Shown piece after piece: positions 5 through 32,649 of a stretch of DNA of 33,428 bases; the stretch's first letter is position 1; each line of letters begins with the position of its first letter. The notes beneath the pieces are model-generated. The model was not told the DNA's origin and did not search any database. It was given only the letters and a program-made list of their open reading frames with translations. Source of the stretch: Prevotella sp. (lineage in GTDB: Bacteria > Bacteroidota > Bacteroidia > Bacteroidales > Bacteroidaceae); assembly GCA_017417465.1 (NCBI GenBank), contig JAFPZD010000257.1:1-33428 (forward strand), given 5' to 3'. The position numbers and the translations under genes are program-made.

Positions 5-114
5 TTTGCTGACCTTCGTCAGCAGATTTGCTGACCTTCGTCAGCAGATTTGCCGACCTACGTCAGCAGATTTGCCGACCTTCGTCAGCAGATTTGCTGA
101 CCTTCGTCAGCAAC
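5..114. repeat. 22-bp tandem array whose unit is a hairpin (5 copies)
   Basis: Five back-to-back 22-bp units begin at 5, 27, 49, 71 and 93. Each holds a 6-bp stem, GCTGAC, a 4-nt loop CTTC and GTCAGC. Units 3 and 4 carry GCCGAC instead, which breaks one pair on this strand but leaves a G-U wobble in a minus-strand transcript. Units are separated by AGATTT. A reading frame crosses the array, but it encodes only the repeat and has no homology I recognise, so I treat the array as non-coding. The window starts at its edge. Confidence 0.9.
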
Positions 115-416
115 AATTAGAATCGCTATTTGGGACAATTGAATTAGGATTGCGGTTCATCAAAAATAGGGGTTGGCTGCGCATAGTTTCCATAACTTGC
201 GGAACTAATCTCGTGTGCACTTATTCGCGCTTTATCCCAAGCCTTTGTCTTTGCGTTTTCAGTCGTTTACAGGAACCCTTCACCATAACATGCTCGTAAT
301 GAGGCGTTTATTGGAAATGTGAAGGGTTGTGAGGTTACTGCATATAGAAATATATTGGTGTCCGCTAACCAAGCCCCAGCCAACGGAATTCTCTCAAACG
401 GTGGCTTTTGTAGTGG
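115..416. other. Gene-free spacer with one inverted repeat
   Basis: I see no credible gene here. The only clear structure is a perfect 10-bp inverted repeat, AACCCTTCAC at 274-283 and GTGAAGGGTT at 319-328, separated by 35 nt. Its role is unknown. Confidence 0.5.
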
Positions 417-516
417 CACCTTTCTCCTAGAAGTCTTCCACCTTTCTCCTAGAAGTCTTCCACCTTTCTCCTATAAGTCTGCTAGACATCTCCTAGAAAT
501 CTTCCACCTTTCTCCG
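417..516. repeat. 22-bp tandem array, second family (4.5 copies)
   Basis: Units start at 417, 439, 461 and 483, with a partial unit at 505-516. The first two are identical. The core is TTTCTCCTAGAAGTCTTC and contains the small dyad GAAG-T-CTTC. Later units diverge (TATAAGTCTGC, GACATCTCC) but keep the 22-bp step. The sequence is unrelated to the array at 5-114. Confidence 0.88.
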
Positions 517-548
517 TACGTAATGGCTCGTCGCTGATAACGAAAGAC

Positions 549-591
549 GCCAGCCATACAGGCACCCACACGGGATTGCTGTATGGCTGGC
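549..591. terminator. 13-bp inverted repeat, possible end of the dcuB operon
   Basis: GCCAGCCATACAG (549-561) and CTGTATGGCTGGC (579-591) are perfect inverted arms around a 17-nt loop. They lie about 65 bp beyond the dcuB stop on the minus strand. A weaker hairpin (CCCTACGGT / ACCGTAAGG, about 620-649) lies between this repeat and the gene. Neither is followed by a clean T run, so termination is only a possibility. Confidence 0.4.
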
Positions 592-654
592 TATGGAAAT
601 CTGATGCCTAAGTCATCACCCTACGGTTCTCCCATTTCACCGTAAGGAAACCGA

Positions 655-2103
655 TTAATAAATAATGGTAGTGAGAAGGTAAGCGACGATGGTCGATGTA
701 ATGACACAAACGAGGCCAGGCATCATGAACGAGTGGTTCAGCAGGTATTTGCCTATGACTGTGGTGCCTGAGCGGTCGAAGTTGACGGTGGCAATATCGC
801 TGGGGTAGTTCGGAATGAAGAAGTAGCCGTAGACCGAGGGCAGCACGCCGAGGAGCACGGGACCTGCGATGCCAAGATGATAGGCGAGGGGTAGCATGGC
901 CACGACAACGGCTCCCTGCGAGTTGATGAGCACCGAGACGAGGAAGAAGACGAAGGCTATCGACCAGGGATACTGCGAAACGATGTCGGACAGCGCAAGC
1001 TTCATCTCGCCGAGGTAGTTTGAGAAGTAGGTGTCAGCGAGCCAAGCAATGCCATAGATGGCCACCACGGCTACCATACCGCTCTGCCACACTGGTCCAG
1101 CGACAGCTTTCTTGGGCTGTGCCTTGCAGAAAATGATCATGAGTGCTGCGGCAGTGATCATCACAATCTGGATCACGACGTTCATGGCCAGCGGCTTGTT
1201 GAACCATTCGGTAGTACCCGTGACGTGAACCTTGGCTTGCACCAATTGGTCGGCAGTCAGCTGTAGGTTCTGGTCGACGTAGAGTGCGTCGCCACCCTTG
1301 ACGGCACGTAGTGTCTCAAAGGAAGGCAGGGCATTCTGGAAGACGGCGAAGAAGACGATGATGACGAGGGCACCGAGGAAGATGAAGACAGCGTTCTTGG
1401 CTGACTGCGGAATCACCATGTCGAGCGTTGTAGCGTTCGAACCATAGATGTACTTGTACTGCTCGGGGTCTTTCAGCTTTGCCTGGAACTGCGGATCCTT
1501 GTCGAGATCGAGTCCACGGCGGTAGCTGGCAGCAGCGGCAGCCATCAGTCCGCAGATGCAGGCGGGGATGGAGACCATCAGCACCTTTGGAATTGTGATG
1601 TCAAAACCATTGGCGTTTGAGATGGACACGAATGCTACCACGGCAGCAGCGATGGGCGAACAAGTGATACCCACCTGCGAGGCTATCGAGGCCACACCAC
1701 AGGGACGTTCAGGACGGATGCCTTTCTTCAGCGCGATGTCGCAGATGATGGGCATAAGCGTGTAGACCACATGGCCGGTACCTACGAGTACAGTGAGGAA
1801 GAATGTACACAATGGGGCAAGGAAAGTGATGCGATCGGGATGCTTGCGCAGCATCTTTTCGGCCAGTTGTATGAGCCAGTCCATACCACCGGAAGCTTGC
1901 ATGATGCCAGCACAGGTGACGGCAGCGATAATGATGTAGATGACGTCGGTCGGAGGTGTACCAGGTTTCAAGCCAAAGCCGAAGACGAGGATGGCAAGAC
2001 CGATGCCAGAGATGGCACCCAGTGCGAGTGAGCCATAGCGTGACCCCACCCACAGTGCTCCTAATACAACGAGGAGCTGAAGAATCATTGTTAGAGTAAT
2101 CAT
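655..2103 (-). CDS. dcuB: Anaerobic C4-dicarboxylate transporter, Dcu family (DcuB-like)
   Basis: This 482-aa polytopic inner-membrane protein matches the DcuA/DcuB family, which exchanges fumarate, aspartate or malate for succinate during anaerobic growth. Hydrophobic helices cover nearly the whole length. Family-like stretches include GTGHVVYTLMPIICDIA near residue 108 and SQVGITCSPIAAAVVAF near residue 142. The C-terminal half has INSQGAVVVAMLPLAYHLGI and FIPNYPSDIATVNFDRSGTT. It is slightly longer than E. coli DcuB because of a loop of about 50 residues after residue 260 (FETLRAVKGGDALYVDQ). The gene starts 24 bp after the fbp stop with no promoter between them, so it is probably the last gene of the lysC-lysA-fbp operon. 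Succinate is a main fermentation product of this group, which fits an exchanger. DcuA is the alternative name; the family is secure. Confidence 0.92.
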   Translation of the reverse strand: MITLTMILQLLVVLGALWVGSRYGSLALGAISGIGLAILVFGFGLKPGTPPTDVIYIIIAAVTCAGIMQASGGMDWLIQLAEKMLRKHPDRITFLAPLCTFFLTVLVGTGHVVYTLMPIICDIALKKGIRPERPCGVASIASQVGITCSPIAAAVVAFVSISNANGFDITIPKVLMVSIPACICGLMAAAAASYRRGLDLDKDPQFQAKLKDPEQYKYIYGSNATTLDMVIPQSAKNAVFIFLGALVIIVFFAVFQNALPSFETLRAVKGGDALYVDQNLQLTADQLVQAKVHVTGTTEWFNKPLAMNVVIQIVMITAAALMIIFCKAQPKKAVAGPVWQSGMVAVVAIYGIAWLADTYFSNYLGEMKLALSDIVSQYPWSIAFVFFLVSVLINSQGAVVVAMLPLAYHLGIAGPVLLGVLPSVYGYFFIPNYPSDIATVNFDRSGTTVIGKYLLNHSFMMPGLVCVITSTIVAYLLTTIIY

Positions 2104-2127
2104 AATTTAGTAGTTTTAGGTTATGGT

Positions 2128-4095
2128 TTATTGACTTGTTTTTTCCGTAATGATGCCGTGACGATACGCATAGAGCAGGTCTTTGAGCTCCTGGATTTGT
2201 CCACGCAGCTCGTCGCCCTTGTCGGTGTCGGCCACCCGCATGCGATGTGCCGACCGCTCTACAATTTGCGTGCTCGACTTGATGTCGGTGCCACGTAGCA
2301 CGGCATCGCGAGCACTGGTAAATGGCTCATGCTGGACGAGCTCGAAGCCTCGGCTGTGGTAGACAAGGGTGTAGCCGGCAATGCCCGTCTCCTTATGGTA
2401 AGCCTCTGAGAATCCGCCGTCGATCACCATCATGCGGCCGCCGGCTTTGATGGGGTTCTCGCCCTTTGAGGCATGCACGGGCACATGGCCATTGATGATG
2501 TGGCGGTTGTCGCCCTTCACGCCGAAGGCATCGAGGATGCGGTCACAGACCTCCTCCGACTCACGCATTTTGAAGTAGTTGCCTTTCTCTTCATGGTGCG
2601 TTGACTTGTCGCTGAGGAAATAGCGCTCGAAGGTGGCCATCTTCGACTTGTCGAAGAGTGGCGAGTCCTTGCCGCACCAGAGGTAGAGGATATAATCGCG
2701 TGCATATCGCTTCTGTTCCGCTGGTGTGTCGTTCTCAAAAGCGGCACGTACCAGTTGGCCGATGTAGTGCATCAGTTCTTTGCCTGCATAGTGCTGCCCG
2801 AGGATTTCCACCTCCTTGAGGGTCCCGTCGTCGTTCAACGGAACGGAGGCGTGGTAGAGCAGGTTCTGGTTGCAGATTTTGTACATGCAGCCGTGGCTTA
2901 GGATGATGCGCACATGCTTGAGGAGCTTCTCAGAGACACGGAACGAGTGATGCAGCTTTTCCATCAGTTCACGCTCATCGACACTCATCTCAGATGGGTT
3001 TTGAGGGTCGATGGTTGGGAAATGGCACGATTTCATCGGGTAGTCGGTGCCGTCAATGCGGCAGGTGCCATGCTCGAAGTCGATGGCCTCAAGCAGACAG
3101 CGGTCTTCCATGTGCCATTCAGGATGCCGGTGGAACACACGCGCCTCTTCCTTGAACTGCAGCACGCTGACGGCCTTGTGCATCTTGGCAATGAGCGTGC
3201 GCGTCTTGTCGTCCATGTGGTCGTCGCCACCCAGCACCTTGGGCAGGAACTCCTCGCATGGGTCGTCGCCATAAACCTCAAGGGCAAACGTTGCCAGTGG
3301 CAGCAGATTGATGCCGTAGCCCTCCTCGAGGGTCGACAGATTGGCATAGCGCAACGACAGGCGCAGCACGTTACAGATACAGGCGTTGTTGCCAGCGGCT
3401 GCTCCCATCCAGAGCATGTCGTGGTTGCCCCACTGTATGTCCCACCCCCCATACTTCTCCAGCGTGTCCATAATGATATGGGCGCCAGGGCCGCGGTCGT
3501 AGATGTCGCCAAGAATGTGGAGCTGGTCGATGGCTAAGTGCTGTATGACGTTTGAGATGGCAACGATAAAGGCATCGGCACGCCCCGTGGAGATAATCGT
3601 GTCGACCACCACAGCCACATAGGCAGCCTTGTCGTGGTCGTCAGTGCGCTCGTGGAGCAGCTCTTCGATGATGTAGCTGAACTCCTTTGGCAGCGCTTTG
3701 CGCACTTTCGAGCGGGTGTACTTGCTCGACACGTCACGGCAGACGCGAACCAACTGGTGGATGGTGATCCGATACCAATCGTCGATGTCGCTCTCCTGCT
3801 CCTTGATGAGCTCCAGTTTCTTCTCGGGATAATAGATAAGTGTGCAAAGCTCTTTCTTCTCGCTCTCGCGGATGGTGTTGCCAAAGATATCGTTCACCTT
3901 GCGCTTGATGTTGCCCGAGGCATTCTTCAGCACATGGATGAAGGCTTCGTGCTCACCGTGGATGTCGGCCAGGAAGTGTTCCGTCCCTTTTGGCAAGTTG
4001 AGGATGGCTTCAAGGTTGATGACCTCAGTGGCAGCGCTGGCGACAGTTGGAAAGCTTCGCGAGAGCAAGTTCAGGTAGCGTTCGTCGGTATTCAT
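2128..4095 (-). CDS. fbp: Fructose-1,6-bisphosphatase, class III
   Basis: The 655-aa product has the length and sequence of class III FBPases (EC 3.1.3.11). These cytosolic gluconeogenic enzymes hydrolyse fructose 1,6-bisphosphate to fructose 6-phosphate and occur in Firmicutes and Bacteroidetes. The metallophosphatase signature is visible in order: DIHGEHEAF from residue 44, GDIYDRG at 196-202 and GNHD at 223-226. INGHVPVHASKGENP, near residue 536, is a later conserved metal-site block. The start codon overlaps the stop of the upstream gene by 4 nt (ATGA), indicating translational coupling. The gene lies between a glycosyltransferase-like gene and dcuB. Carbon entering as C4 dicarboxylates would need this enzyme to make hexose, a plausible but inferred link with dcuB. 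Confidence 0.96.
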   Translation of the reverse strand: MNTDERYLNLLSRSFPTVASAATEVINLEAILNLPKGTEHFLADIHGEHEAFIHVLKNASGNIKRKVNDIFGNTIRESEKKELCTLIYYPEKKLELIKEQESDIDDWYRITIHQLVRVCRDVSSKYTRSKVRKALPKEFSYIIEELLHERTDDHDKAAYVAVVVDTIISTGRADAFIVAISNVIQHLAIDQLHILGDIYDRGPGAHIIMDTLEKYGGWDIQWGNHDMLWMGAAAGNNACICNVLRLSLRYANLSTLEEGYGINLLPLATFALEVYGDDPCEEFLPKVLGGDDHMDDKTRTLIAKMHKAVSVLQFKEEARVFHRHPEWHMEDRCLLEAIDFEHGTCRIDGTDYPMKSCHFPTIDPQNPSEMSVDERELMEKLHHSFRVSEKLLKHVRIILSHGCMYKICNQNLLYHASVPLNDDGTLKEVEILGQHYAGKELMHYIGQLVRAAFENDTPAEQKRYARDYILYLWCGKDSPLFDKSKMATFERYFLSDKSTHHEEKGNYFKMRESEEVCDRILDAFGVKGDNRHIINGHVPVHASKGENPIKAGGRMMVIDGGFSEAYHKETGIAGYTLVYHSRGFELVQHEPFTSARDAVLRGTDIKSSTQIVERSAHRMRVADTDKGDELRGQIQELKDLLYAYRHGIITEKTSQ

Positions 4096-5054
4096 ATTCT
4101 AAGGTGATTGGTTAACAGTGTTCTAAGATTCTGTGTCTGGCGATTGTCTGCAGGAGCACAAGGCATGAAGCCCTCGTCTAATAGCAGTTGCTCGCTCAGT
4201 AGCTGTATGATGCTTTTAAACAGCGGAGTTAGGTTGTTTTGTTCAAGCTGTAAGAGAAGCTCGCTCTCGTTCAGATGCTCATCGTGAAGCGCCCTGGACA
4301 AGTCGGTCAGCCGCAACAGCGACAGGCCGTTTTGGCTGACATCGTTCAGCATGTCGACCACCGTCCGGCCACGCATGCTTGTGGGTGGCGTGAACCCCTC
4401 TGGCAGGTAACAGTCGACAGCCTCACGGCGTGGGGCACTGATGCCCAGTATGCGCAGCCCTTCGTCGGCAATGGCGCTGACACCTTCAAACTCGCTGTAA
4501 ATTTGAATGAGGCGGAGGGCGGCTGGTGCATACTGGACGTCAAGGGCAAGAGGGGTGGTGAGCCACCGCTGGTCGCCTAAGATGCCCACTTTAAGGACGG
4601 CGGCCAGCAGTCGGCGGGTGTCCTCGTCCATGAGTGGCAGTGGGTTGGAGTCCATCACCCGCTTGTAGACGCGTACCATTTTTTCAGCGGTTTCATCGAA
4701 AGTGGTCGTCTTGGTGATGAGCGGATTAAGGATTACCTCGGTACGAGGCAGCTGCAGGCGTTGTGCTTCGATCTTGCTGCGTGCAACGATGGCATAGTAG
4801 CCCATTCCATCGGTAGCGACCGCCGTGGAACCATTTGGTGAAACCACACGGCGTACCGTGGAAGGCAGTGAGAAAGGAGCCGCGCCATGCTGATGGACGA
4901 TGTCTGGGCGGAACTCAGCGCACAGACGTTGGAAATCGGCCTTTTCATCACACGTTATCGACCGTACATGATGGCGCATCGCGTCGCTGAGCAGACTCAG
5001 GTAGCGTGTCGTCATAGGGACATCCTTTGGGTGGATATGTAGTACGGTCAGCAT
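4092..5054 (-). CDS. Uncharacterised protein with a GT4-like N-terminal region
   Basis: This 320-aa protein resembles the N-terminal half of GT-B glycosyltransferases. MLTVLHIHPKDVPMTTRYL forms a first beta-alpha unit, FRPDIVHQHG (about residues 49-58) is the usual D-I-V-H-x-H-G strand-loop, and SKIEAQRL and EVILNPLITKTT match the linker. The expected C-terminal donor-binding half with its E-x7-E motif is not recognisable. Residues beyond about 150 are helical and Leu-rich instead. No signal peptide or membrane segment is seen, so a cytoplasmic location is likely. It overlaps fbp by 4 nt and follows lysA by 49 bp, so it belongs to the same transcript. Catalysis cannot be claimed. It may be a degenerate transferase or a lineage-specific protein with a similar fold. 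Confidence 0.7.
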   Translation of the reverse strand: MLTVLHIHPKDVPMTTRYLSLLSDAMRHHVRSITCDEKADFQRLCAEFRPDIVHQHGAAPFSLPSTVRRVVSPNGSTAVATDGMGYYAIVARSKIEAQRLQLPRTEVILNPLITKTTTFDETAEKMVRVYKRVMDSNPLPLMDEDTRRLLAAVLKVGILGDQRWLTTPLALDVQYAPAALRLIQIYSEFEGVSAIADEGLRILGISAPRREAVDCYLPEGFTPPTSMRGRTVVDMLNDVSQNGLSLLRLTDLSRALHDEHLNESELLLQLEQNNLTPLFKSIIQLLSEQLLLDEGFMPCAPADNRQTQNLRTLLTNHLRI

Positions 5055-5103
5055 TGGTAAATTGATGGTAATGAAAAAGGTCGACGAGGCCGTTGCCGGT
5101 CTC

Positions 5104-6261
5104 TCAAATATCGTCGCTGGTATAAGCCTTGGGGATGGGGCGGCAGTTGTAGTGCGAAGCCATGATCTCTCCGTAGGCTCCGGCTGAGCGGATGGCGATG
5201 AGGTCGCCTCGCTGACAGCGGTTCAGGTCGATGCGCTTGGCGAAGACGTCGCTCGACTCGCAGATGGGCCCTACTACGTCGTAGGGCTCCATAGGCTCGT
5301 CGCTCGTGATGTTTTCAATCTTGTGGTAGGCCTGATACAAGGCGGGGCGGATGAGGTCGGTCATGCCGGCATCGACAATGCAGAACTTCTTTGTGGCCCC
5401 CTCTTTAATATATAAGGTACGCGTAATGAGGCTTCCCATCGGTGCGACGACGGCACGTCCCAGCTCAAAGTGCAACGTCTGGCCTGGCAGCAGGCGCAAG
5501 CGTCGGGCAAAGGTGTCGAAGTAGGTTTTGAAGTCGGCCATCGGCACACGGTTGGGGTGCTGATAGTCGATGCCCAGGCCACCGCCGACGTTGATGCTCG
5601 CCACGTCGATATGGCGCCTCGACAGCAGCGTCTGCAGGTCGTTGATGCGATTGCAGAGGGCTTGGAAGTCGCCCATGTCTAGAATCTGCGAGCCAATGTG
5701 GAAGTGGAGGCCAGTGAAGCTGATGGCCGGCATCTGCTGTGCCTGCTCGATGACATGCTCCATGTCGCGCATGGCAATGCCAAACTTGTTCTCGGCCAGG
5801 CCCGTGGTGATGTTGGCATGGGTATGGGCGCCCACATCGGGATTGATGCGCAGTGCCACTGGTGCAATCGTACCCATCTCGGCAGCTATCTCATTGATGA
5901 CCTCCAGCTCGGCAAGACTCTCAACGTTGAAGCAGTGGATAGCAGCCTCAAGGCCCAGACGTATCTCCCAGTCGCTCTTGCCCACACCGGCATAGACGAT
6001 GGTGTCAGGGGCAAAGCCGGCATCCAGGGCGGCACGTATCTCGCCACCGCTGACACAGTCGGCACCAAAGCCTGCCTGCCGGATGGCGCGCAACACTTTG
6101 CTGTTGGCATTGGCTTTCACAGCGTAGTGCACGTGGAAGTCCTCATGGCGCCCCGCCTCACGCCGTATGACGTCAAGCGTCTGCCGCAGCAGCTCCATGT
6201 CATAGTAGTAGAAGGGCGTCTGGAGCGACGCAAACTTCTCTTTGGGGAATGTTCCTTTCAA
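5104..6261 (-). CDS. lysA: Diaminopimelate decarboxylase
   Basis: LysA (EC 4.1.1.20) is a PLP enzyme of the alanine-racemase fold that converts meso-diaminopimelate to L-lysine. The 385-aa sequence has the Schiff-base lysine K49 in HYAVKANAN and the glycine-rich PLP-phosphate loop NVGGGLGID. HFHIGSQI and FELGR (replacing the more common EPGR) are also present, as is the catalytic cysteine C334 in GPICESSDVF contributed to the partner subunit. The family is homodimeric. The gene lies 52 bp downstream of lysC in the same operon, placing the first and last enzymes of the lysine branch together. No lysine riboswitch is apparent upstream. Confidence 0.96.
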   Translation of the reverse strand: MKGTFPKEKFASLQTPFYYYDMELLRQTLDVIRREAGRHEDFHVHYAVKANANSKVLRAIRQAGFGADCVSGGEIRAALDAGFAPDTIVYAGVGKSDWEIRLGLEAAIHCFNVESLAELEVINEIAAEMGTIAPVALRINPDVGAHTHANITTGLAENKFGIAMRDMEHVIEQAQQMPAISFTGLHFHIGSQILDMGDFQALCNRINDLQTLLSRRHIDVASINVGGGLGIDYQHPNRVPMADFKTYFDTFARRLRLLPGQTLHFELGRAVVAPMGSLITRTLYIKEGATKKFCIVDAGMTDLIRPALYQAYHKIENITSDEPMEPYDVVGPICESSDVFAKRIDLNRCQRGDLIAIRSAGAYGEIMASHYNCRPIPKAYTSDDI

Positions 6262-13275: not shown

Positions 13276-13342
13276 GGTTCCACCCATTGGGACAAACATC
13301 CCACCCGCTGGGACAAACTTCCCACCCATTGGGACAAACGTC
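13276..13342. repeat. 21-bp tandem array (3 copies)
   Basis: Three units follow the pattern CCACCCATTGGGACAAAC plus ATC, TTC or GTC. The junctions create the dyad TGGGA-CAAACA-TCCCA. The period is 21 bp, one less than the other arrays. It is degenerate at the right end (CCGCTTCATGG). Confidence 0.82.
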
Positions 13343-13367
13343 CCGCTTCATGGAACTATCTGCCACT

Positions 13368-13411
13368 TGTAGTTTAACGATTTTAGTTGTGTAGTTTAAC
13401 GATTTTAGTTG
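13368..13411. repeat. Perfect 22-bp direct repeat (2 copies)
   Basis: Two identical copies begin TGTAGTTTAACGATTTTAG, at 13368-13389 and 13390-13411. The repeat is AT-rich and unrelated in sequence to the neighbouring arrays. Confidence 0.92.
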
Positions 13412-13710: not shown

Positions 13711-14099
13711 ACCTCCCTAAATCGCCGGAAACGCCTTTGTACAAAGGAGGTTAGAGAAGGGAGGTGTTGTCGTGACACCTTCCTTGCACCTCCCTTAGAC
13801 CTCCCTTAGACCTCCCTTAGACCTCCCTTGCACCTCCCTTGAACCTTCCCTACACAGTTTTCTCCAATGGGATGACCTTATAGTGGGGCACATGGCTTCG
13901 TTGCAAACTCTACTTTCCCACTCAGCACATTTCGACGGAGAAGGTAATTCTCATTCAGCAACAGCTCAGGTTGCATTTTCCCTTTTGAAATGCAAGGGGG
14001 AGAAGGGAGGTGTAAGGGAGGTGTAAGGGAGGTGTCACGACAACACCTCCCTTACCAAAGTCCCTTTATACAAAGGGGTTTCCAGCAATTTAGGGAGGT
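13711..14099. repeat. 389-bp MITE-like element with 70-bp inverted arms
   Basis: The left arm (13711-13780) and right arm (14030-14099) are inverted copies. They match at their outer ends (ACCTCCCTAAAT / ATTTAGGGAGGT) and inner ends (AAGGGAGGTGTTGTCGTGAC and its complement), with about a dozen mismatches between. The core has no open frame of note. Both inner edges carry 11-bp repeats of ACCTCCCTTAG: six at 13788-13853 and about three, inverted, at 14003-14034. I cannot define a target duplication. It may be a non-autonomous element or a decayed composite. Confidence 0.75.
13788..13853. repeat. 11-bp tandem array (6 copies)
   Basis: Units start at 13788, 13799, 13810, 13821, 13832 and 13843. 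The consensus is ACCTCCCTTAG, with TTGC, TTGA and CTAC variants at the 3' end. The period is exactly half of 22 bp. Confidence 0.85.
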
Positions 14100-14154: not shown

Positions 14155-14242
14155 GCCCCTCGCGAAGTGCCACTTTCAGACACGCAAAGTTTCATTACCA
14201 GACACGCTAAGTGCCGGATTGCGACACGCTAACCGTCACTTC
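14155..14242. repeat. 22-bp periodic array, degenerate (4 units)
   Basis: Units at 14177, 14199 and 14221 begin CAGACACGC, CAGACACGC and GCGACACGC. AAGTGCC occurs at 14165 and 14209, exactly 44 bp apart, so the period continues one unit to the left. Unit contents diverge, but the phase is kept. Confidence 0.72.
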
Positions 14243-14251: not shown

Positions 14252-14350
14252 GAGTCTAGCCCCAGTCTCCTCCGAGCAGACTCCCAGACTTCTCCGAGCA
14301 GACTCCCAGTCTTCTCCGAGTAGACTCCCTGACACCTCCGAGCAGTCTTT
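14252..14350. repeat. 22-bp tandem array of the GAGCAGACT family (4.5 units)
   Basis: Units start at 14252, 14274, 14296, 14318 and 14340 (partial). They share GAGCAGACTCCC...CTTCTCC, including the short dyad GAG-CAGA-CTC. The same family recurs 18 kb away at 32521-32649. The array directly precedes the truncated gene at 14391. Confidence 0.9.
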
Positions 14351-14390: not shown

Positions 14391-14849
14391 GTAGATCGTC
14401 TGCCCACGAACGGACAGGACATCGTGGCCGAGAACGTCATGGTGGAAGCTTCGAAGGTGATGGTGCCGACGGGTGTGGACGAGATGCTTGGTGTGATTGC
14501 ACAGACCACAGTGCCGACTGGCGGTTATTGGTTCGATGGTTCGAGCGACAAGCTGGTGTGCGTTAATGACAACGATGAGGTCAGTGTGATGGCTGGACAA
14601 GGGTTCTTCCTGCTGCCTGCTGCTCTTGGTACAGAAAGCCTTGATGCACTGTTCGGCACAGCGTCTACTAAGGGCGATGTGAACGGTGACGGTGAGGTCG
14701 GCATTGGTGACATCGTAGCTGTCACGAACGTTATGGCAGGCATCACTACCGATACTAACATCGTGGCTTGTGCCGATGTGAATGGCGACGGCGAGGTAGG
14801 CATTGGCGACATCGTGGCCATCACGAATATCATGGCAGGAAGGGAGTGA
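14391..14849 (+). pseudogene. Orphan C-terminus of a secreted protein with two dockerin-like repeats
   Basis: An open frame encodes ...VDRLPTNGQDIVAENVMVEA..., then GGYWFDGSSDKLVCVNDNDEV and a C-terminal pair of dockerin-like repeats. The first repeat is GDVNGDGEVGIGDIVAVTNV (from 14673) and the second is DVNGDGEVGIGDIVAITNI. Both have the D-x-N-x-D-G calcium-loop pattern. A complete gene of this type would have a signal peptide and several hundred preceding residues. Here the frame runs back into the 22-bp repeat array with no signal peptide and no promoter. The first usable starts are GTG at 14424 and ATG at 14439. I read it as a 3' gene remnant cut off at or near the repeat boundary. A small expressed protein is less likely. 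Confidence 0.75.
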
Positions 14850-16363: not shown

Positions 16364-16370
16364 AGCTTCG

Positions 16371-16442
16371 TAGTCGGTAAGGGAATCGAACCCTTATGCC
16401 AAGATTGAGAATCTTGTATCCTAACCGTTAGATGAACCGACC
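16371..16442 (-). tRNA. tRNA-Glu (CTC), copy 2
   Basis: The full cloverleaf can be drawn: acceptor GGTCGGT/ACCGACT with a G1-U72 pair, anticodon stem CAAGA/TCTTG with loop TTCTCAA (anticodon CTC), and T-arm AAGGG-TTCGATT-CCCTT. The discriminator is A and no CCA is encoded. It reads GAG. It is identical to the copy at 16461-16532. Confidence 0.93.
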
Positions 16443-16460
16443 GGTTTTCTGCCTTTAGAG

Positions 16461-16532
16461 TAGTCGGTAAGGGAATCGAACCCTTATGCCAAGATTGAGA
16501 ATCTTGTATCCTAACCGTTAGATGAACCGACC
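16461..16532 (-). tRNA. tRNA-Glu (CTC), copy 1
   Basis: The sequence is identical to the copy at 16371-16442, with anticodon CTC in loop TTCTCAA. The two genes are 18 bp apart, a recent tandem duplication within the operon. Confidence 0.93.
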
Positions 16533-24923: not shown

Positions 24924-24932
24924 GTATCAGTC

Positions 24933-27152: not shown

Positions 27153-27400
27153 CCCAAATCGGTCATTAGAAACAATATGAGTAAGAGCCTCCCTAACCCC
27201 TCGGAGAGGGATAAGATAGCCCTGCAGCGGAAAAAGTTAGCCCTGCAACGGAAAGTTAGACCTGCAACGGAAAGTTAGCCCTGCAACGGAAAAAGTTAGT
27301 CCTGCAGCGGAAGTGGTAACACTTGAATCGGTCATTAACACAAAAAGACCTCCCCTCGCTCGGCTTTGCCGCTTCGCTCTGCGAAGAACCCCTCCTGTAG
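27153..27400. repeat. Dispersed palindromic repeat, left part (interrupted by the IS)
   Basis: It begins CCCAAATCGGTCATTAGAAA, as does the element at 31118, and continues AGCCTCCCTAACCCCTC. Five units of 19-21 bp built on CCTGCAACGGAAAGTTAG follow (about 27220-27313). Next comes a second ATCGGTCATTAACA end and the block CTCGGCTTTGCCGCTTCGC, which contains the hairpins CGGC-TTT-GCCG and CTTCGC-TCT-GCGAAG. It ends at CCCCTCCTGTAG, where the IS inserted. Confidence 0.82.
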
Positions 27401-27511: not shown

Positions 27512-27590
27512 CACATGTTAAAAAAACACCTTTTCGGGTGTTGGAAATGATGCGAGAATCGGAAATCGGCTAGGTTCGCTTTGCGACCGG

Positions 27591-28949
27591 ATGGTGGAAA
27601 AAGGTTCCAGCATCATTCATTTCTGCTGCGAGAGCCATGCTGAACGGGCTGCAGCGTACCGTTTGATCAACAATGGTAGACTGGTCATGGAAGATATCGT
27701 CAGTGGCTTGGCACTTGATTGTTCTGAAGGGTGCGAAGGCCTCTCCCACGTGCTTTGCCTGCAAGACACTACAGAAATAGTTTTCAGTCACGAAGGTCGT
27801 CTCTCTCTTTCGGACACGGACTTCGGCTACGGTACGAGTGAGCATGAGAAGTTTTGCATCTTCGCCCATCCCGGCCTGGTCATTGACGCTGCGAGCCGTA
27901 TGCCCGTGGGCTTTGGCCACATAAAGGTATGGAGTAGGGACAGGTCGGAGGACCGCAAGAAGAAGCAGCGCCGCGGCAAGCTGAAGCTGGAGGAAAAGGA
28001 GTCGTACCGGTGGGTGGAGACAGCGGAGGGGACGGCATCATCCCTGCCTGACGGTGTGCGGGTGACGATGGTCGGCGACCGCGAGAACGACGTGTACACG
28101 GTGATGTGCATGACACTGGCGTGCGGCTGTGACTTCCTTGTCCGCTCGATGCACGACCGCCCCGTGGACTGCGATGTTGAGGGCGGCAGCCGGGGTATCA
28201 GGGAATACATGCTGAGATTACCCGTGGCCCACACCTACGACCTTGAGCTTTGCGGGCACAAGGGCAGGAAGAGCCGCACGGCCAGGATGCACCTGCGCTT
28301 CTCCAAGGTCACCATCAGGAAGAGCGGCAATTGCCTTGACGACGTGCCGGAGAGCCTCCCCTGCTACTGCATCCATGTCATTGAAGATGCCTCGACTGTC
28401 CCCGACGGCGAAGAGCCCGTGGAGTGGCGCTTGCTCACCTCCCACACGGTTGAGAGCGTGGACGAGGCTGTCGAGTGCGTGGAATGGTACAAGTGCCGCT
28501 GGTACATAGAGGAGCTCTTCAGGGTCTGCAAGAGCGAGGGCTTCCGCATCGAGTCCGTGCAGTTGGAGAGCGGTGCGGCAGTAAAGAAGCTCATCGTCCT
28601 GACGATGTGGGCGGCTTTGAGGTGCATCATGCTCAAACGCGCCTACGACGAGCAGGACGAGGCCGTGCCAGCCAGTAAGATGTTTGATGAAGAAGAGGAG
28701 CACTTGCTCGACCTTGAGATGGAGCGTATAAGCCAGAAGTCACCAAAAGCCCTTGACGGCAGGAACCCGTTCCGCAAGCACTCCCTGCCATGGGCTGCCT
28801 GGATTATTGCCCGAATGGGCGGCTGGAGCGGCTATGTCTCAGCACACGGCAGACCTGGATACATCACCATGAAACAGGGATTGGACAGGTTCCGGCAGCA
28901 CCTAGAAATCATAGCCTTCGCAAGGGCTAGAGATGTGTGTAAAGAGTAG
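27591..28949 (+). CDS. IS4-family transposase (Tn5/IS50-like), possibly frameshifted at the 5' end
   Basis: The open frame encodes 452 aa. DDE residues are D59 (LCLQDTTEIVFS), D163 (MVGDREND) and E307. The last sits in the IS4 YREK signature (Y300, R303, E307, K314 in EWYKCRWYIEELFRVCK). Conserved N-terminal residues lie in frame upstream of the ATG (NDARIGNRLGSLCDR, 27546-27590), but that stretch has no in-frame start. An ATG at 27515 reads MLKKH, one nucleotide out of frame, across a run of seven A at 27520-27526. Removing one A would give about 477 aa, the length of the Tn5 enzyme. The element may be inactivated, use slippage at the A run, or carry a sequencing error. Confidence 0.85.
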   Translation: MVEKGSSIIHFCCESHAERAAAYRLINNGRLVMEDIVSGLALDCSEGCEGLSHVLCLQDTTEIVFSHEGRLSLSDTDFGYGTSEHEKFCIFAHPGLVIDAASRMPVGFGHIKVWSRDRSEDRKKKQRRGKLKLEEKESYRWVETAEGTASSLPDGVRVTMVGDRENDVYTVMCMTLACGCDFLVRSMHDRPVDCDVEGGSRGIREYMLRLPVAHTYDLELCGHKGRKSRTARMHLRFSKVTIRKSGNCLDDVPESLPCYCIHVIEDASTVPDGEEPVEWRLLTSHTVESVDEAVECVEWYKCRWYIEELFRVCKSEGFRIESVQLESGAAVKKLIVLTMWAALRCIMLKRAYDEQDEAVPASKMFDEEEEHLLDLEMERISQKSPKALDGRNPFRKHSLPWAAWIIARMGGWSGYVSAHGRPGYITMKQGLDRFRQHLEIIAFARARDVCKE

Positions 28950-28951
28950 TC

Positions 28952-29085
28952 CTGTAGGAGGGGGATAAGATAGACCTGCAGCGGATAAGGTAACTTATCC
29001 CCCTCCTACAGGAGGGGTTCTTCGCAGAGCGAAGCGGCAAAGCCGAGCGAGGGGAGGTCTCTTACAGGAGGGGTTCTTTTCCCCC
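28952..29085. repeat. Dispersed palindromic repeat, right part
   Basis: It continues the interrupted repeat with CTGTAGGAGGGGGATAAG, then GGATAAG-GTAA-CTTATCC (hairpin), CCCCTCCTACAGGAGGGG (palindrome), and the block TTCTTCGCAGAGCGAAGCGG to GAGCGAGGGGAGGTCT. That last block is the inverse complement of 27347-27390. No gene is supported. Confidence 0.82.
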
Positions 29086-29141
29086 CCTCCGTTTCCCCAC
29101 TTTCGGGAACGGTGAATAAGGACTGGCGTACTTGCGTACCG

Positions 29142-29972
29142 TTACAACTGTCGGAGCGCTCCAACGAGCTCGTTGTTCTCACTGCGGGTGCCAACAGGTA
29201 TGCGGACGGCGCCTGGCAGGGGCAGCGTGTCGAGGGTGATGCCACGCTGCTGCAGATAAGCGACGATGCGTGGGGCATTGGTAAGGCTGACGACGAAGAA
29301 GTCGGCATCGGCATCGTAGACACGCTCGCAGAACGGCAGCTCACGGAAAGCCTGCATCAGACGCGTGCGCTCCTGCATGCAAAGGCGCACACGGCGGTCA
29401 AGGTCGAAGGGGTCGGGTAGGGCGCTGAGGGTCTCGCCGTCGTACTCGTAGAGTGCCTCTAACAGCCGCAGGCGACCGATGTTCGCTGGCTGTGAGAACA
29501 GCAGTCCTGGACTGTCGAGAACGATGAGCCGTGGGAACTTGGGCAGCTCGAAGCGCAGAGGGCGCTGACGGGCGTAGTCGCTCAGCCGCTCGTCGACGAC
29601 CACCATGCCCGTGAACTTGTCGAGCAGTCGCACCAGCTCCTCGCGTACCATATTATTATTACTTGTCACGGCGTTGGGCATGCTGAGCCAAACGAGGCGC
29701 GTCCTGGCATTGCATGCAGCCAGCAGCGTGTCGGCCGTCAGCTGTAAGTTGTCGTCGAGTGCTGCCGTCCGATATTCCACGTGGTTCACGTCGGCCAGTT
29801 GCTGAAAGTCAGGGCTTGTGAGGCTTGTGGCAACGACATTATCGGCAAAAGGCTTGCAGAAGATGCGGAATACGAGGTCGATGGCGCGCAGGGTGTGTCC
29901 AGCAACAAAAGTGTAGTCGGCGGGTATTCCTTTCACCCGTTCCAGTGTTTTCGTCAGCTCGTTCGTTATCAT
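29142..29972 (-). CDS. HisC-like protein lacking the catalytic lysine (predicted pseudoenzyme)
   Basis: The 276-aa protein aligns by eye with histidinol-phosphate aminotransferase (PLP fold type I). It has AIDLVFRIFCKPFADNVVATS, DVNHVEYRTAALDDNLQLTADTLLAA, and the end GAVRIPVGTRSENNELVGAL. Key sites are changed. NPNNPTG is MPNAVTS, the DEAY block is DERLSDY, and the S-K-x-x-G Schiff-base region is LDSPGLLFSQPANIG. There is no lysine at all from residue 146 to the end. About 50-70 N-terminal residues of a normal HisC are missing. The frame is open and has a good promoter, so it looks expressed. Aminotransferase activity is improbable. It is divergent from the lytic transglycosylase gene. Confidence 0.75.
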   Translation of the reverse strand: MITNELTKTLERVKGIPADYTFVAGHTLRAIDLVFRIFCKPFADNVVATSLTSPDFQQLADVNHVEYRTAALDDNLQLTADTLLAACNARTRLVWLSMPNAVTSNNNMVREELVRLLDKFTGMVVVDERLSDYARQRPLRFELPKFPRLIVLDSPGLLFSQPANIGRLRLLEALYEYDGETLSALPDPFDLDRRVRLCMQERTRLMQAFRELPFCERVYDADADFFVVSLTNAPRIVAYLQQRGITLDTLPLPGAVRIPVGTRSENNELVGALRQL

Positions 29973-29989
29973 TTCCTAATATTTTGGCG

Positions 29990-30020
29990 CAAAGTTAGGG
30001 AAAATTTTCCGAATATGCAA
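29990..30020 (-). promoter_or_regulatory. Promoter for the HisC-like gene
   Basis: On the minus strand TTG (30018-30020), 20 nt, TAACTTTG (29990-29997). It overlaps the divergent promoter of the next gene. Confidence 0.78.
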
Positions 30021-30037
30021 TAAAATGCTTAATTTTG
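30005..30037 (+). promoter_or_regulatory. Promoter for the lytic transglycosylase gene
   Basis: TTTTC (30005-30009), then 20 nt, TAATTTTG (30030-30037). The -7 box is exact and the -33 box weak. The ATG at 30048 is only about 10 nt after the box, predicting a leader of a few nucleotides. Confidence 0.7.
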
Positions 30038-30047
30038 CACCCGAAAA

Positions 30048-31094
30048 ATGAAAAAACTCGCACACATCGCCCTCGTTTGCTTGCTTCTGGCCGCCTGTCA
30101 GCGCCATCAGGAAGTGCCGCCACCAACATGGTCGACGGAGACGGCGACTGATGGTAGTTTCGACCTCAGCGAGATAGAGATGTCAGGCGAGCTCATCGCA
30201 CTGACACTCACAGGCCCTGACACGTACTACGACTACCACGGTGGCCATCTGGGCGTACACTACCTGATGTGTCTCGACTTTGCCCAGCACCTTGGCGTGC
30301 GTCTGCGCATGGAAGCCTGTCGCGACACGGCTGAACTGCTGCAGCGACTCGATGCTGGCGATGCCGACCTTGGCGTGCTCAGCTTCCAGAGCGACAGCCT
30401 GTCGCCTGGGTGGCGCATTGGCAGCAACAAGCCTGAGCTGGCTGAGGCCCTCGCGGCCTGGTATCGCCCCACGATGCTGGCCGAGGCAAAAGCCAAGGAG
30501 CACCAGATGCTCACGCAGCCACGCGTCAGGCGCCACATCTATGCCCCCATGCTGTCGAAGGGCGTCATCTCGCACTACGACGGCTACTTCAAGCAGTATG
30601 CCAAGCGCATCGGCTGGGACTGGCGACTCATTGCTGCCCAGTGTTACCAGGAGTCGACCTTCGACCCGCAGGCCAAGTCGTGGGCAGGCGCCACAGGTCT
30701 GATGCAGATCATGCCCACCACGGCTGACCACCTCGGACTGCCTCGCGACCAGCTGACGAACCCTGAGCAGAACATTGCCGCCGCTACACGCTACCTGAAG
30801 GAGCTGGAGCAGGCTTTCAGCTACATACGTGACCGCCAGGAACGCCAGAACATGGTGCTGGCATCGTATAATGGTGGCGCCAACCACGTGCGCGACGCCA
30901 TGCGGCTGGCTGAGCGCGACCGCCGTAACCCACAGCGCTGGCAGGACGTGAAGCCCTACATCCTGCGACTGAGCCAGCCAGAGTACTACAACGACACCCT
31001 CGTGCGCTATGGCTATATGCGTGGCAGCGAGACAGCCGACTATGTGGACAAGATCCGCCAGCGCTACGACAAGTACAGGCGGACGGTGAGATGA
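30048..31094 (+). CDS. Membrane-bound lytic transglycosylase, MltF-like lipoprotein
   Basis: The 348-aa protein begins MKKLAHIALVCLLLAAC, a lipobox with the lipidated cysteine at residue 17. Residues from about 40 to 150 resemble a reduced substrate-binding-protein domain (FDLSEIEMSGELIALTL, LGVHYLMCLDFAQHLGVRL, DAGDADLGVLSF), as in MltF. The C-terminal SLT domain (GH23) has the catalytic glutamate E202 in AAQCYQESTFDPQA, then SWAGATGLMQIMPTTA and VLASYNGGANHVRDA. It cleaves peptidoglycan glycan strands, producing 1,6-anhydromuramyl ends, and probably acts at the outer membrane. Confidence 0.92.
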   Translation: MKKLAHIALVCLLLAACQRHQEVPPPTWSTETATDGSFDLSEIEMSGELIALTLTGPDTYYDYHGGHLGVHYLMCLDFAQHLGVRLRMEACRDTAELLQRLDAGDADLGVLSFQSDSLSPGWRIGSNKPELAEALAAWYRPTMLAEAKAKEHQMLTQPRVRRHIYAPMLSKGVISHYDGYFKQYAKRIGWDWRLIAAQCYQESTFDPQAKSWAGATGLMQIMPTTADHLGLPRDQLTNPEQNIAAATRYLKELEQAFSYIRDRQERQNMVLASYNGGANHVRDAMRLAERDRRNPQRWQDVKPYILRLSQPEYYNDTLVRYGYMRGSETADYVDKIRQRYDKYRRTVR

Positions 31095-31117
31095 GGCATG
31101 GGGGCGAATTAAACGAA

Positions 31118-31511
31118 TTAACCCAAATTGGTCATTAGAAACAATATGTGTAAGAGACCTCCCCTAACCCCTCCTGTAGGAGGGGGATAAGTTAGACCTG
31201 CGGCGGATAGGGGGATAAGTTAGACCTGCAGCGGATAAGGTAACTTATCCCCCTCCTACAGGAGGGGTTAGGGGAGGTCTCCTACAGGAAGGGTTCTTCG
31301 CAGAGCAGGAAGAGTTCTTCGCAGAGCGAAGCGGCAAAGCCGAGCGAGGGGAGGTCTCCTACAGGAAGGGTTCTTCGTAGAACAGGAGGGGTTCTTCGTA
31401 GAGCGAAGCGGCAAAGCCGAGCGCGGGGAGGTCTCTTGTGCTAACGACCGATTTGGGTTAAACAGGAGGGGCGCGGGGAGGTCTCTTGTGCTAACAACCG
31501 ATTTGGGTTAA
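31118..31511. repeat. MITE-like palindromic element with TIRs and possible 5-bp target duplication
   Basis: The left end TTAACCCAAATTGGTCATTAG (31118) is the inverse of CTAACAACCGATTTGGGTTAA at 31491-31511, and of a second such end at 31441. ACGAA flanks both sides (31113-31117 and 31512-31516). Inside, 31154-31194 and 31241-31281 are a perfect 41-bp inverted repeat with a 46-nt loop. Each arm contains the palindrome CCCCTCCTgtAGGAGGGG or its inverse. The right half repeats the block GCGAAGCGGCAAAGCCGAGC twice. No open frame is present, so any transposase would be supplied in trans. Confidence 0.8.
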
Positions 31512-31518
31512 ACGAATA

Positions 31519-31560
31519 ACGGACGCGCAGCAATTCGTGTAATTCGTTCAATTCGTTGTT
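31519..31560. repeat. Short AATTCGT repeats upstream of the kinase gene
   Basis: AATTCGTGT, AATTCGTTC and AATTCGTTG form a 9-bp step array. GAATTAAACGAATTAA just left of the 31118 element is nearly its inverse, so the element sits between inverted copies. Confidence 0.6.
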
Positions 31561-31585
31561 GGAGAAAAAGATTATTTGTATAAAC

Positions 31586-31593
31586 TAAATTTG
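31586..31593 (+). promoter_or_regulatory. Possible -7 box for the BadF-type kinase gene
   Basis: TAAATTTG matches TAnnTTTG and lies 22 bp before the ATG at 31616. No TTTG is at the right distance upstream, so confidence is moderate. Confidence 0.45.
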
Positions 31594-31615
31594 AATAGTT
31601 ACTTATTAAGAACGG

Positions 31616-32509
31616 ATGAACAACGAACAAAGATACGTGATCATTGCCGACAGCGGCAGCACGAAGACAGATTGGGCGGTTGACGGACGCCGTCTGCAGA
31701 CACAGGGCATCAACCCTTTCCATCAGGATGAGGACACCATACGCAGCATTTTGCGCAACGAACTGCTGCCACAGTTGGCCTTACCCCTCGCCGCTTCATC
31801 GCCAGAGAGTGACGCGACAGATGCTGCGCATCAAACGTTGGCCGTAGAGGGGGCCGTCTTCTACGGCAGTGGCGTGCGCCCTGAGCTGGAGGCCAAGATG
31901 GAGGGGCTGTTGCGTGAGATCTTTCCTAATGCCAGCCATATCGAGGCGCACAGCGACCTGCTTGGCGCTGCCCGTGCCCTCTGTGGCGGCCGCGAAGGCA
32001 TTGCCTGCATACTTGGCACAGGAGCCAACTCCTGCCTCTTCGACGGCGAGCGCATCGTGCGTAACACGCCTCCCTTGGGCTATATCCTTGGCGACGAGGG
32101 CAGTGGTGCCGTGCTGGGCATTCGCTTCCTCAATGCGCTCTATAAAGGCCAGCTCGACGATGCCCTGCGCCACGCGTTCGAGGCGTGGGCAGGCTTGGCC
32201 CTGCCTGACGTCATAGCCCGTGTCTATCGGCAGCCTATGGCCAACCGCTGGCTCGCCTCGCTGTCGCCATTCATCCATCAGCACATCAGCCAGCGTGGCG
32301 TCCAGGCGCTGGTCGTCGACAATTTTCGTGACTTCATACGTCGCAACATCGTGCCCTATCGTCGCCCTGACCTGCCTCTGAACGCCGTTGGCAGCATTGC
32401 CTACCATTACCAGCCACAGCTTCAGGAGGCAGCCCGTCAGGAGGGCTATGCCATTGGCATCGTCGTGCGCAGTCCACTCGACCGTCTGACCATGCCCAAA
32501 GCTGGCTAA
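31616..32509 (+). CDS. BadF/BadG-type sugar kinase (N-acetylglucosamine kinase-like)
   Basis: The 297-aa protein is an ASKHA-fold ATPase. It has phosphate-1 motif IIADSGSTKTDWAV, a central GREGIACILGTGANSCLFDG (phosphate-2) and LGYILGDEGSGAVLGIRFL. The late block is PLNAVGSIAYHYQPQLQEAA. Members of this size in Bacteroidetes are annotated as N-acetylglucosamine or glucosamine kinases, which phosphorylate amino sugars from wall recycling or glycans. The substrate is not determined by the sequence. The neighbouring lytic transglycosylase would release amino-sugar products, a suggestive but unproven link. Confidence 0.82.
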   Translation: MNNEQRYVIIADSGSTKTDWAVDGRRLQTQGINPFHQDEDTIRSILRNELLPQLALPLAASSPESDATDAAHQTLAVEGAVFYGSGVRPELEAKMEGLLREIFPNASHIEAHSDLLGAARALCGGREGIACILGTGANSCLFDGERIVRNTPPLGYILGDEGSGAVLGIRFLNALYKGQLDDALRHAFEAWAGLALPDVIARVYRQPMANRWLASLSPFIHQHISQRGVQALVVDNFRDFIRRNIVPYRRPDLPLNAVGSIAYHYQPQLQEAARQEGYAIGIVVRSPLDRLTMPKAG

Positions 32510-32520
32510 TAGTTTGCTCC

Positions 32521-32649
32521 GAGCGGACTGCCACACTTCTCCGAGCAGACTGCCACACTTCTCCGAGCAGACTGCCACACTTCTCCGAGCAGACTGCCAC
32601 ACTTCTCCGAGCAGACTGCCACACTTCTCCGAGCAGACTGCCAGTGTTG
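32521..32649. repeat. 22-bp tandem array of the GAGCAGACT family (6 units)
   Basis: Units start at 32521, 32543, 32565, 32587, 32609 and 32631 (last partial). They are nearly identical: GAGCAGACTGCCACACTTCT plus CC. The array lies between the kinase stop and the atpD promoter. It belongs to the same family as 14252-14350, differing mainly by CTGCCACAC against CTCCCAGAC. Each unit has the dyad GCAG-A-CTGC. Confidence 0.93.

Follow-up and report, generated by a model that had tools for sequence, protein, structure and literature searches.

Dispersed intergenic arrays of near-palindromic sites at 22-bp spacing in Prevotella and other Bacteroidaceae

Introduction

Several tandem arrays in the intergenic DNA of a Prevotella sp. 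genome (assembly GCA_017417465.1) step by exactly 22 bp, which raises the question of why arrays of differing sequence should share one period. The window analyzed here is the entire contig JAFPZD010000257.1 (33,428 nucleotides, contig C144), which belongs to a genome of 4.42 Mb in 278 contigs with 90.8% completeness and 5.5% contamination. A sequence-only reading of this window had pointed out the shared period and had offered helical phasing or templating by an enzyme with a fixed step as candidate causes. The observation is sound and is larger than first claimed. Many such arrays are members of dispersed intergenic families of near-palindromic sites of approximately 14 to 19 bp, set 22 bp apart center to center; the motif belongs to a species or small clade, and the spacing belongs to the family Bacteroidaceae.

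Period statistics across taxa

Arrays were counted in a sample of the window's own genome (the window and 20 further stretches, 219 kb), in a congener sample (60 stretches, 1.2 Mb), and in four outgroup samples of 200 kb from five genomes each. These covered genera elsewhere in the family, families elsewhere in the order, orders elsewhere in the class, and classes elsewhere in the phylum. Genes were taken as the longest open reading frame (ORF) of at least 300 nt, a crude rule that makes the term "noncoding" approximate, and two more congener 22-bp arrays were classed as coding and excluded from the noncoding counts. A period of 22 bp was the commonest among noncoding arrays in the own genome (16/75), in congeners (32/114), and in other genera of the family (4/8). 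The sequence-only reading had proposed a shared constraint on the period, and within the range of 18 to 26 bp a period of 22 bp was indeed far commoner than its neighbors, accounting for 16/30, 32/51, and 4/5 arrays in these three samples, respectively; such a constraint therefore does exist. No noncoding array of period 22 was found in the order (0/20), class (0/7), or phylum (0/10) samples, or 0/37 together. Overall, 52 arrays of 22 bp occurred in 1.62 Mb of family DNA versus none in 0.60 Mb outside it (Poisson P = 4e-9).

Adjacent periods behaved differently. Noncoding arrays of period 23 numbered one among congeners and one in the class sample, with none in the own-genome, family, order, or phylum samples, and those of period 21 numbered 7 in the own genome and 11 in congeners, of which some, judged by eye, are triple 7-mers. 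A further, smaller sample of eight stretches from other genera gave a period of 22 bp for one of four arrays, and an Escherichia coli control of 50 kb gave two arrays, each of period 93. A period-blind autocorrelation, which counted 12-base windows with at least 10 matches k bases on in intergenic DNA only, yielded 313 windows per 10 kb at k = 22 versus 8.7 at k = 23 in the own genome, where k = 7 and k = 21 were also high (133 and 122 per 10 kb). The corresponding values for k = 22 and 23 were 60 versus 10 per 10 kb in congeners and 28 versus 1.6 in the family sample, with echoes at 44 and 66 within the family; the 22/44/66 series was not seen in the order, class, and phylum samples. Within the limits of this sampling, the 22-bp period is a property of the family.

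Site architecture and motif families

When the arrays are printed in register, many resolve into a palindrome of 14 to 19 bp and a short spacer that sum to 22 bp, such as AAAAGnTnAnCTTTT plus 7 bp in a congener that we identify as Prevotella bivia (genome G010), AAACAnTATnGTTT plus 8 bp in G180, GGTAATnnnATTACC plus 7 bp in G024, and GAAAACnnnGTTTTC plus 7 bp in G055. Against shuffled units, a dyad was detected at P < 0.05 in 15/52 units of 22 bp and in 2/18 units of 21 bp, in agreement with the earlier remark that several units carry a small dyad. Sites stand 22 bp apart center to center irrespective of their relative orientation and of the spacer sequence, and helical phasing of DNA-bound proteins is therefore a good candidate.

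The window's own genome holds 105 matches (66 + 39) to the pattern TCTCCNAGNAGNCT, versus 0 + 1 for the reversed-pattern control. The 100 matches listed fall into 41 loci, with gaps of 22 bp (55 times), 44 bp (twice), 66 bp (once), and 49 bp (once, on opposite strands). Among 37 distinct units, which were chosen by this pattern and hence have 11 of 22 positions fixed, the free left arm (A in 33/37, C in 32, and T in 34 at positions 4, 7, and 8) complements the fixed right arm, so that the site is a 19-bp dyad, ASWCTTCTCCKAGMAGWCT, with 3 bp between sites. Units in the middles of these arrays are alike, and those at the edges are degenerate.

P. bivia offers a named, cultured species for testing these observations: G010, by our identification strain DSM 20514, carries 122 exact matches to AAAAGNTNANCTTTT (control, 1). 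When a collection of named genomes was scanned for two AAAAGNTNANCTTTT sites at 22 bp, 25 of the 46 stretches recovered were from this strain, and 14 came from Prevotella metagenome-assembled genomes (MAGs), with one each from P. amnii, P. corporis, and P. brunnea; the four remaining stretches comprised two from a MAG filed as Bacillota, one from a Bacteroidetes MAG, and one from a phytoplasma. Across 299 genomes of the genus, the motif occurs in at least 11 copies in 10 genomes and in 0 to 6 copies in the others, and P. amnii has four exact AAAAGRTNAYCTTTT sites in 2.4 Mb. The earlier claim that the sequences are unrelated thus holds mostly between species and fails within a genome, where motifs are shared among loci. 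Fixed spacing across the family together with sequence turnover at the species level would be the unusual fingerprint of a quickly evolving recognizer with one binding geometry.

The 39 P. bivia loci among the matches listed show gaps of 22 bp (23 times), 44 bp (5 times), and 88 bp (once). None of 27 distinct arrays overlaps an ORF, and at a criterion of 7/10 arm matches they hold five sites (16 arrays), four sites (10 arrays), or three sites (1 array). Positions within the site are nearly invariant, and those at the center of the spacer (7 bp) are close to random, which argues for selection on the sites. Neighboring sites are identical in 5/96 cases, versus a shuffled expectation of 4.1; we therefore rejected tandem duplication as the origin of neighboring sites, and the templating by one fixed-step enzyme suggested earlier finds no footing here. 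Within a site, the half-sites are often unlike: positions 6 and 10 hold G..T or A..C in 83/123 sites and Watson-Crick pairs in 36/123 (59 expected), an asymmetry that fits protein recognition better than a hairpin. The outer arms of neighboring sites are perfect reverse complements in 24/96 cases (8.4 expected; maximum of 17 in 2,000 shuffles), and complementarity of the inner arms is at chance (33 versus 29.8 expected). Hairpin-templated replication errors, or quasi-palindrome correction, arise when the inner arm primes and the outer arm is copied. Such errors would leave complementarity in the outer arms only, whereas selection for a hairpin would be expected to leave it in outer and inner arms alike.

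Arrays in genome G357 are based on AAAAGCTAAG, with sites in either orientation but always 22 bp apart, and hold four sites in 15/16 loci as counted by script and in nearly all of 15 loci as judged by eye. As a separate observation, four sites at L201:5040-5120, in an uncultured Prevotella MAG, are nested as one long hairpin (z = -9.35) in which outer sites pair with each other and inner sites with each other, and the outer sites carry a different motif.

A shared box beside the arrays

The flanks of P. bivia arrays share sequence (51.5 bits versus 38.2 in shuffled flanks; standard deviation, 0.4). Past one array end in both P. bivia and G357 lies a box, GTAAnnnnnTGAnnnTCAnnnnnTTAC, that is itself a dyad; in G357 it lies past the end with the symmetric site, with the consensus GTAAACAACTGAAAATCAATGGGTTACAAA and the dyad GTAA-TGA-TCA-TTAC. 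We built a profile of this box from G357 alone and scored it from array ends against 233 intergenic control points. The score beside P. bivia arrays was 13.2, versus 6.8 at control points, and 19/27 arrays exceeded the 95% level of the control when approximately 1.4 were expected (P = 1.5e-13), with the best matches at a single offset, 12, in 13/27 arrays. The array is thus part of a longer composite element in at least two species, as shown for P. bivia and G357 only. Shared flanks and a box at the same distance suggest composite dispersed elements that resemble repetitive extragenic palindromic (REP) sequences or PINSR repeats. High scores beside arrays of other genomes include 22.5 at L087:4389-4463, the clearest case, 16.5 at L145, and 17.8 at L149 (G018, G207, and G229), and these arrays may represent the composite element in additional species.

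Genomic placement

Among 49 arrays flanked by a called gene on each side, 14 lie in convergent, 29 in tandem, and 6 in divergent regions. Convergent regions thus hold somewhat more arrays than expected (P = 0.02 by region number and 0.07 by length), and there is no tie to promoters. For P. bivia alone, 4 of the 26 arrays with both neighbors called lie in divergent regions. The 39 P. bivia loci among the matches listed are spaced more evenly than random (coefficient of variation [CV], 0.58; null, 0.94; P = 0.0002), and the G357 loci are clumped (CV, 1.66). The largest gap in G357, at G357:C1:806672-1288974, extends over 482 kb without an exact AAAAGNTNANCTTTT match (P = 0.001 for random placement of 56 loci). 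Placement relative to the origin or terminus, as a role in nucleoid occlusion would suggest, was considered for these clumped loci. The G357 dnaA gene lies at 1.80 Mb, but according to the portion of the source consulted (PMC4755523), members of this phylum often have oriC at a distance from dnaA, and GC skew gave no significant split at 20 points (P = 0.42).

Arrays and other repeats in the window

Tandem Repeats Finder was run on the window, and the array ends it gives differ by a few bases from those reported previously. The arrays are as follows.

5..112, no strand: 22-bp array (Tandem Repeats Finder; 4.9 copies, 95% match)
417..515, + strand: 22-bp array, TCTCCTAGAAGTCT form of the own-genome family (Tandem Repeats Finder; 4.5 copies, 80%)
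13280..13344, no strand: 21-bp array (Tandem Repeats Finder; dyad by eye)
13368..13411, no strand: two 22-bp copies (Tandem Repeats Finder; 2.0 copies, 100%)
13775..13855, no strand: 11-bp array ACACCTCCCTT (Tandem Repeats Finder; 7.4 copies)
14172..14237, no strand: degenerate 22-bp register with three GACACGCWAA copies (by eye)
14261..14345, + strand: 22-bp array, TCTCCGAGCAGACT form (Tandem Repeats Finder; 3.9 copies, 85%)
32517..32643, + strand: 22-bp array, TCTCCGAGCAGACT form (Tandem Repeats Finder; 5.8 copies, 99%)

Five of the six 22-bp arrays first reported were recovered by the program. The sixth, at 14155-14242, is too diverged to be called at a score of at least 30, but it contains the three GACACGCWAA copies at 22-bp intervals. 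The arrays of 21 and 11 bp placed near 13276 and 13788 were likewise recovered. Five arrays in the window reach a score of at least 50, whereas 30 dinucleotide-preserving shuffles gave three in total, one of them of period 22.

The sequence-only reading had linked only the last two 22-bp arrays, but the array at 417-515 also belongs to the TCTCCNAGNAGNCT family, as do those starting at 14261 and 32517, and the motif recurs at dozens of loci in the genome. The family pattern matches at 423 and 445, at 14291 and 14313, and within 32538-32626, respectively. The array at 5-112, ahead of which the contig has only 4 bases, has a unit made of an 18-bp dyad, TGCTGACCTTCGTCAGCA, and 4 bp (P = 0.005 versus shuffled units), and its motif has no second occurrence in the sampled part of the genome. 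The 21-bp unit at 13280-13344 consists of TCCCACCCATTGGGA (15 bp with 5-bp arms) and 6 bp, which is the architecture of the 22-bp type minus one base. The pair at 13368-13411 is negative in the dyad test (P = 0.905) and could be an ordinary duplication. CACGCGA units resembling the copies at 14172-14237 flank a TCTCC-family array at contig C61 with their order kept (by eye). The 11-bp array at 13775-13855 is probably a different kind of repeat; the reverse complement of a ACACCTCCCTT run lies at 14003-14035, approximately 150 bp away, forming a large inverted 11-mer repeat.

The array at 32517-32643 begins 7 bp past the stop of the ORF at 31616-32509 and lies 150 bp ahead of an ORF for an ATP synthase subunit. 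No Pfam family was detected in the former ORF at an E value of 0.001. Among 30 loci around its protein, the window's own and 2/29 congener loci (L015 and L018) have a 22-bp array directly downstream, and the motifs of these three arrays differ. It is possible that the position of the array behind this gene is conserved while the motif turns over.

Other repeats in the window include related ones in two places, at 27213-27312, 31181-31237, and 31270-31435 (AAGTTAGCCCTGCAACGGAAA; AGGGGGATAAGTTAGACCTGCAGCGGAT; and a 77-bp unit with GCGAAGCGGCAAAGCCGAGCG), as found by Tandem Repeats Finder and by eye. A 90-bp tandem duplication at 16370-16532 (98% match) corresponds to two tRNA-Glu (CTC) genes. 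An ORF-like stretch at 14424-14849, apparently severed from its gene, ends by eye in two DVNGDGEVGIGDIVA-type repeats, an end that we take to be reminiscent of a dockerin or calcium-binding end.

Y1 genes and the arrays

Genes for HUH enzymes of the Y1_Tnp family were found in 10 of the 21 genomes tested and in none of the other 11. Array-bearing genomes in which no Y1 gene was found include G024, G180, G229, G194, G379, and G313, the last two with 43 and 34 motif copies. All Y1 genes found in P. bivia are of the IS200/IS605 type, and no subclass 1.2 Y1 gene was found there. Arrays were not enriched over all 19 Y1 loci (4/19 versus 27/158 in the control). Given the absence of Y1 genes from 11/21 genomes and the lack of overall enrichment, we rejected a REP-associated tyrosine transposase (RAYT) as the general cause.

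Genome G016 carries three Y1 copies (two full and one with a stop), two of which have palindrome clusters on both sides. The palindrome, GTAANTTGNNNCAANTTAC, is in 22-bp register, and five clusters lie in 9.9 kb around the three copies, compared with six in 100 kb elsewhere in the G016 sample and two in 1.1 Mb of other congeners. The copies are 92 to 96% identical over 0.9 to 1.1 kb. Because they are related, the association between gene and array counts once, and a binomial P of 0.0017 is invalid. Repeats of approximately 68 bp, some of them inverted, adjoin these genes between the gene and the 22-bp array (L236:976-1279, L249:2041-2207, and around). Of the two Y1 loci in G357, one lies approximately 0.6 and 1.1 kb from sites of the main motif. 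The Y1 proteins near the G016 and G357 arrays carry Y---Q--HH, the mark of subclass 1.2 TnpA-Y1, which in the sections consulted of its description is found mostly in Cyanobacteria and Bacteroidetes, is without insertion-sequence properties, and was first characterized there to its authors' knowledge (PMC6006769).

The subclass 1.2 genes of the window's own genome (contig C91) and of G059 are bordered by other, GC-rich repeats and not by the array motif. At L235 (G000:C91 ~5147-5485), CGGGGG..CCCCCG and GCCCTTTCAGGGC, separated by TATTCTGCC, form units of approximately 70 bp by eye, in many copies on both sides, and at L234 (G059:C1 ~109186) the gene is bordered by a GC-rich double palindrome. 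From its sequence, this arrangement appears REPtron-like, although typical terminal structures are described as generally lacking in this group. A class 2 type Y1 gene (NHVH, WQ, YINNNP) lies near several GC-rich 22-bp arrays at L246 (G000:C15 ~4941-5177).

Proposed explanation and alternatives

We propose, with a probability of roughly 0.45, that the arrays are dispersed sets of near-palindromic sites at 22 bp that would be read by a cognate, fast-evolving putative DNA-binding protein, spread in the manner of REP or PINSR repeats, and kept by selection. The palindromes would be recognition sites at which the protein reads two half-sites, and the 22-bp step would place successive sites on nearly one face of the helix. 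The element would spread, or once have spread, as those repeats do, and selection on the sites would maintain it. In the reading that we favor, the step corresponds to two helical turns from one predicted bound site to the next, with a single putative recognizer.

Several results weigh against this proposal. With a dyad in just 15 of the 52 units, some 22-bp arrays may be plain repeats. The end box passes beside only 7/52 arrays of other genomes (2.6 expected), and the distribution of their scores as a whole is unshifted (P = 0.57). In an orthology check of 21 other stretches, two could be judged, L219 and L201. At the best-judged orthologous place, L219 of P. amnii, one array position with the same neighbors is shared with P. 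bivia. At L201, the two left-hand neighbors are present in P. bivia without an array, the nearest being approximately 3 kb off.

A more elaborate and rather doubtful form of the proposal is a two-part element of Bacteroidaceae, in which the cross-species box GTAAnnnnnTGAnnnTCAnnnnnTTAC stands at a fixed distance from approximately four fast-changing palindromes at two helical turns. Two putative proteins, one conserved and one fast evolving, would recognize these parts, seeding the element at intervals of a few tens of kilobases and maintaining it as a family-wide layer of chromosome architecture or a long-lived symbiotic repeat, perhaps with an HUH founder. The arrays might instead be platforms for a resident, nonmobile DNA-binding protein (in chromosome organization, as a roadblock, or in regulation), with three to five dimers per array phased at two turns and with coevolution of protein and sites. 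Near-invariant sites persist in P. bivia, where the Y1 genes found are of the IS200/IS605 type only, and the half-site asymmetry, the array position common to P. amnii and P. bivia, and the even spacing of P. bivia loci fit such platforms as well. However, the shared flanks and end box favor a dispersed element, the 49 arrays show no clear preference for promoters or gene ends, the G357 loci are clumped, and the motif of a core regulator would not usually change so fast; we consider such platforms unlikely. It is distinctly improbable that the arrays are REP equivalents of orphan HUH enzymes (TnpA-Y1 subclass 1.2), each with its own palindrome as in REP-RAYT systems. The G016 clusters, the G357 locus near main-motif sites, and the Y---Q--HH proteins point in that direction, but the G016 gene copies are related, and the units nearest to them are those of ~68 bp rather than the arrays. 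Moreover, Y1 genes are not found in several genomes with arrays, the 19 loci show no enrichment, and GC-rich repeats of another kind border the subclass 1.2 genes of the own genome and G059.

Ordinary minisatellites kept at a period of 22 bp by a helical or slippage constraint would account for near-perfect repeats, such as the dyad-free pair at 13368-13411 and the 99% array at 32517-32643, and for the own-genome arrays, which look similar in their middles and degenerate toward their edges. They would not account for one motif at dozens of loci with differing spacers, for the near-constant array size in P. bivia and G357, or for the lack of 22-bp arrays in all samples taken beyond the family, and we regard this as very unlikely. 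Structured RNA or terminators, with tandem hairpins in transcripts, would agree with the complementary outer arms in P. bivia and with folding, as 8/12 chosen arrays fold better than shuffles (z below -2, to -10.8). Four of the 12 do not (z from +0.42 to -1.72), among them L258 and L261, whose sites all have one orientation, so that what is kept constant appears to be the center-to-center distance of the sites and not a hairpin. Furthermore, inner arms are at chance, symmetry through the site center leaves no loop, and hairpin-templated replication errors would also give the outer-arm pattern. We rejected the terminator reading because divergent regions are not avoided and the RNA-element reading because of the missing folding excess in 4/12 arrays, and we hold either to be highly improbable. 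An enzyme that adds 22-bp copies from one template would explain an exact, family-wide period, but identity between P. bivia neighbors is at the shuffle level and the step is kept despite differing spacers and orientations, which makes templating barely credible.

Comparison with known repeat systems

The proposed dispersed element does not coincide with the systems that we compared it with. CRISPR arrays need repeats of 24 to 48 bp and longer regular spacers, and the test for them was negative, given sites of 14 to 19 bp, spacers of 3 to 8 bp, and many loci. Ordinary minisatellites vary in period by locus and have one sequence at one locus, which these arrays do not. We were unable to find, in the open-licence literature, a title or abstract opening on 22-bp palindrome arrays in Prevotella or Bacteroidaceae.

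REP/REPIN sequences with RAYT (TnpA-REP) are described, in the portions of the sources consulted, as dispersed, intergenic, palindromic, and species specific, in tens to hundreds of copies (PMC6006769, PMC3733652). The arrays are alike in all these respects: the palindromes are dispersed and extragenic (122 and 105 matches, with 1 in each control, and 0/27 arrays in ORFs). Unlike REP/REPIN sequences, they have a fixed 22-bp register of multiple palindromes with sites symmetric through their centers. A class 2 Y1 gene (Y---NP) flanked by the same repeat was not found in the 21 genomes, the class 2 gene at L246 having other, GC-rich 22-bp arrays as neighbors, and no constant GTAG/GTGG/CGTC tag at the hairpin foot was seen by eye in the site listings. 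Without this partner and tag, we class the element as a REP-like dispersed palindromic repeat and not as a REP-RAYT system. Subclass 1.2 TnpA-Y1, whose Y---Q--HH genes lie near the 22-bp arrays of G016 and G357, is itself a gene family, whereas the arrays are repeats; its putative link to them comes from a single lineage whose gene copies are related to each other.

BrickBuilt minisatellites of Porphyromonas gingivalis, which are miniature inverted-repeat transposable elements (MITEs), have 23-nt units at 18 to 19 loci with a shared leader and tail in the part of their description consulted (PMC4596501). They resemble the arrays as intergenic tandem repeats of Bacteroidales with shared flanks, and a shared leader or tail was found here in P. 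bivia and G357 only. They differ in being one sequence family with terminal inverted repeats and a 23-nt unit in one species group, rather than a family-wide period with a changing motif. PINSR, a 188-bp repeat of Prevotella intermedia and relatives with 177 and 184 copies in two strains, is clade specific, approximately three quarters conserved in place between strains, and of no known function according to the portion of its description consulted (PMC4755523). Like the arrays, it is intergenic, clade specific, and high in copy number in Prevotella. Compared by description only, it differs as a single 188-bp repeat for which that portion mentions neither palindromes nor a 22-bp step. Set beside the arrays on this basis, PINSR may be a relative or a local version of the array element. 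The arrays would account for some of the repeats that lie between Prevotella genes and may give PINSR-type repeats a common frame.

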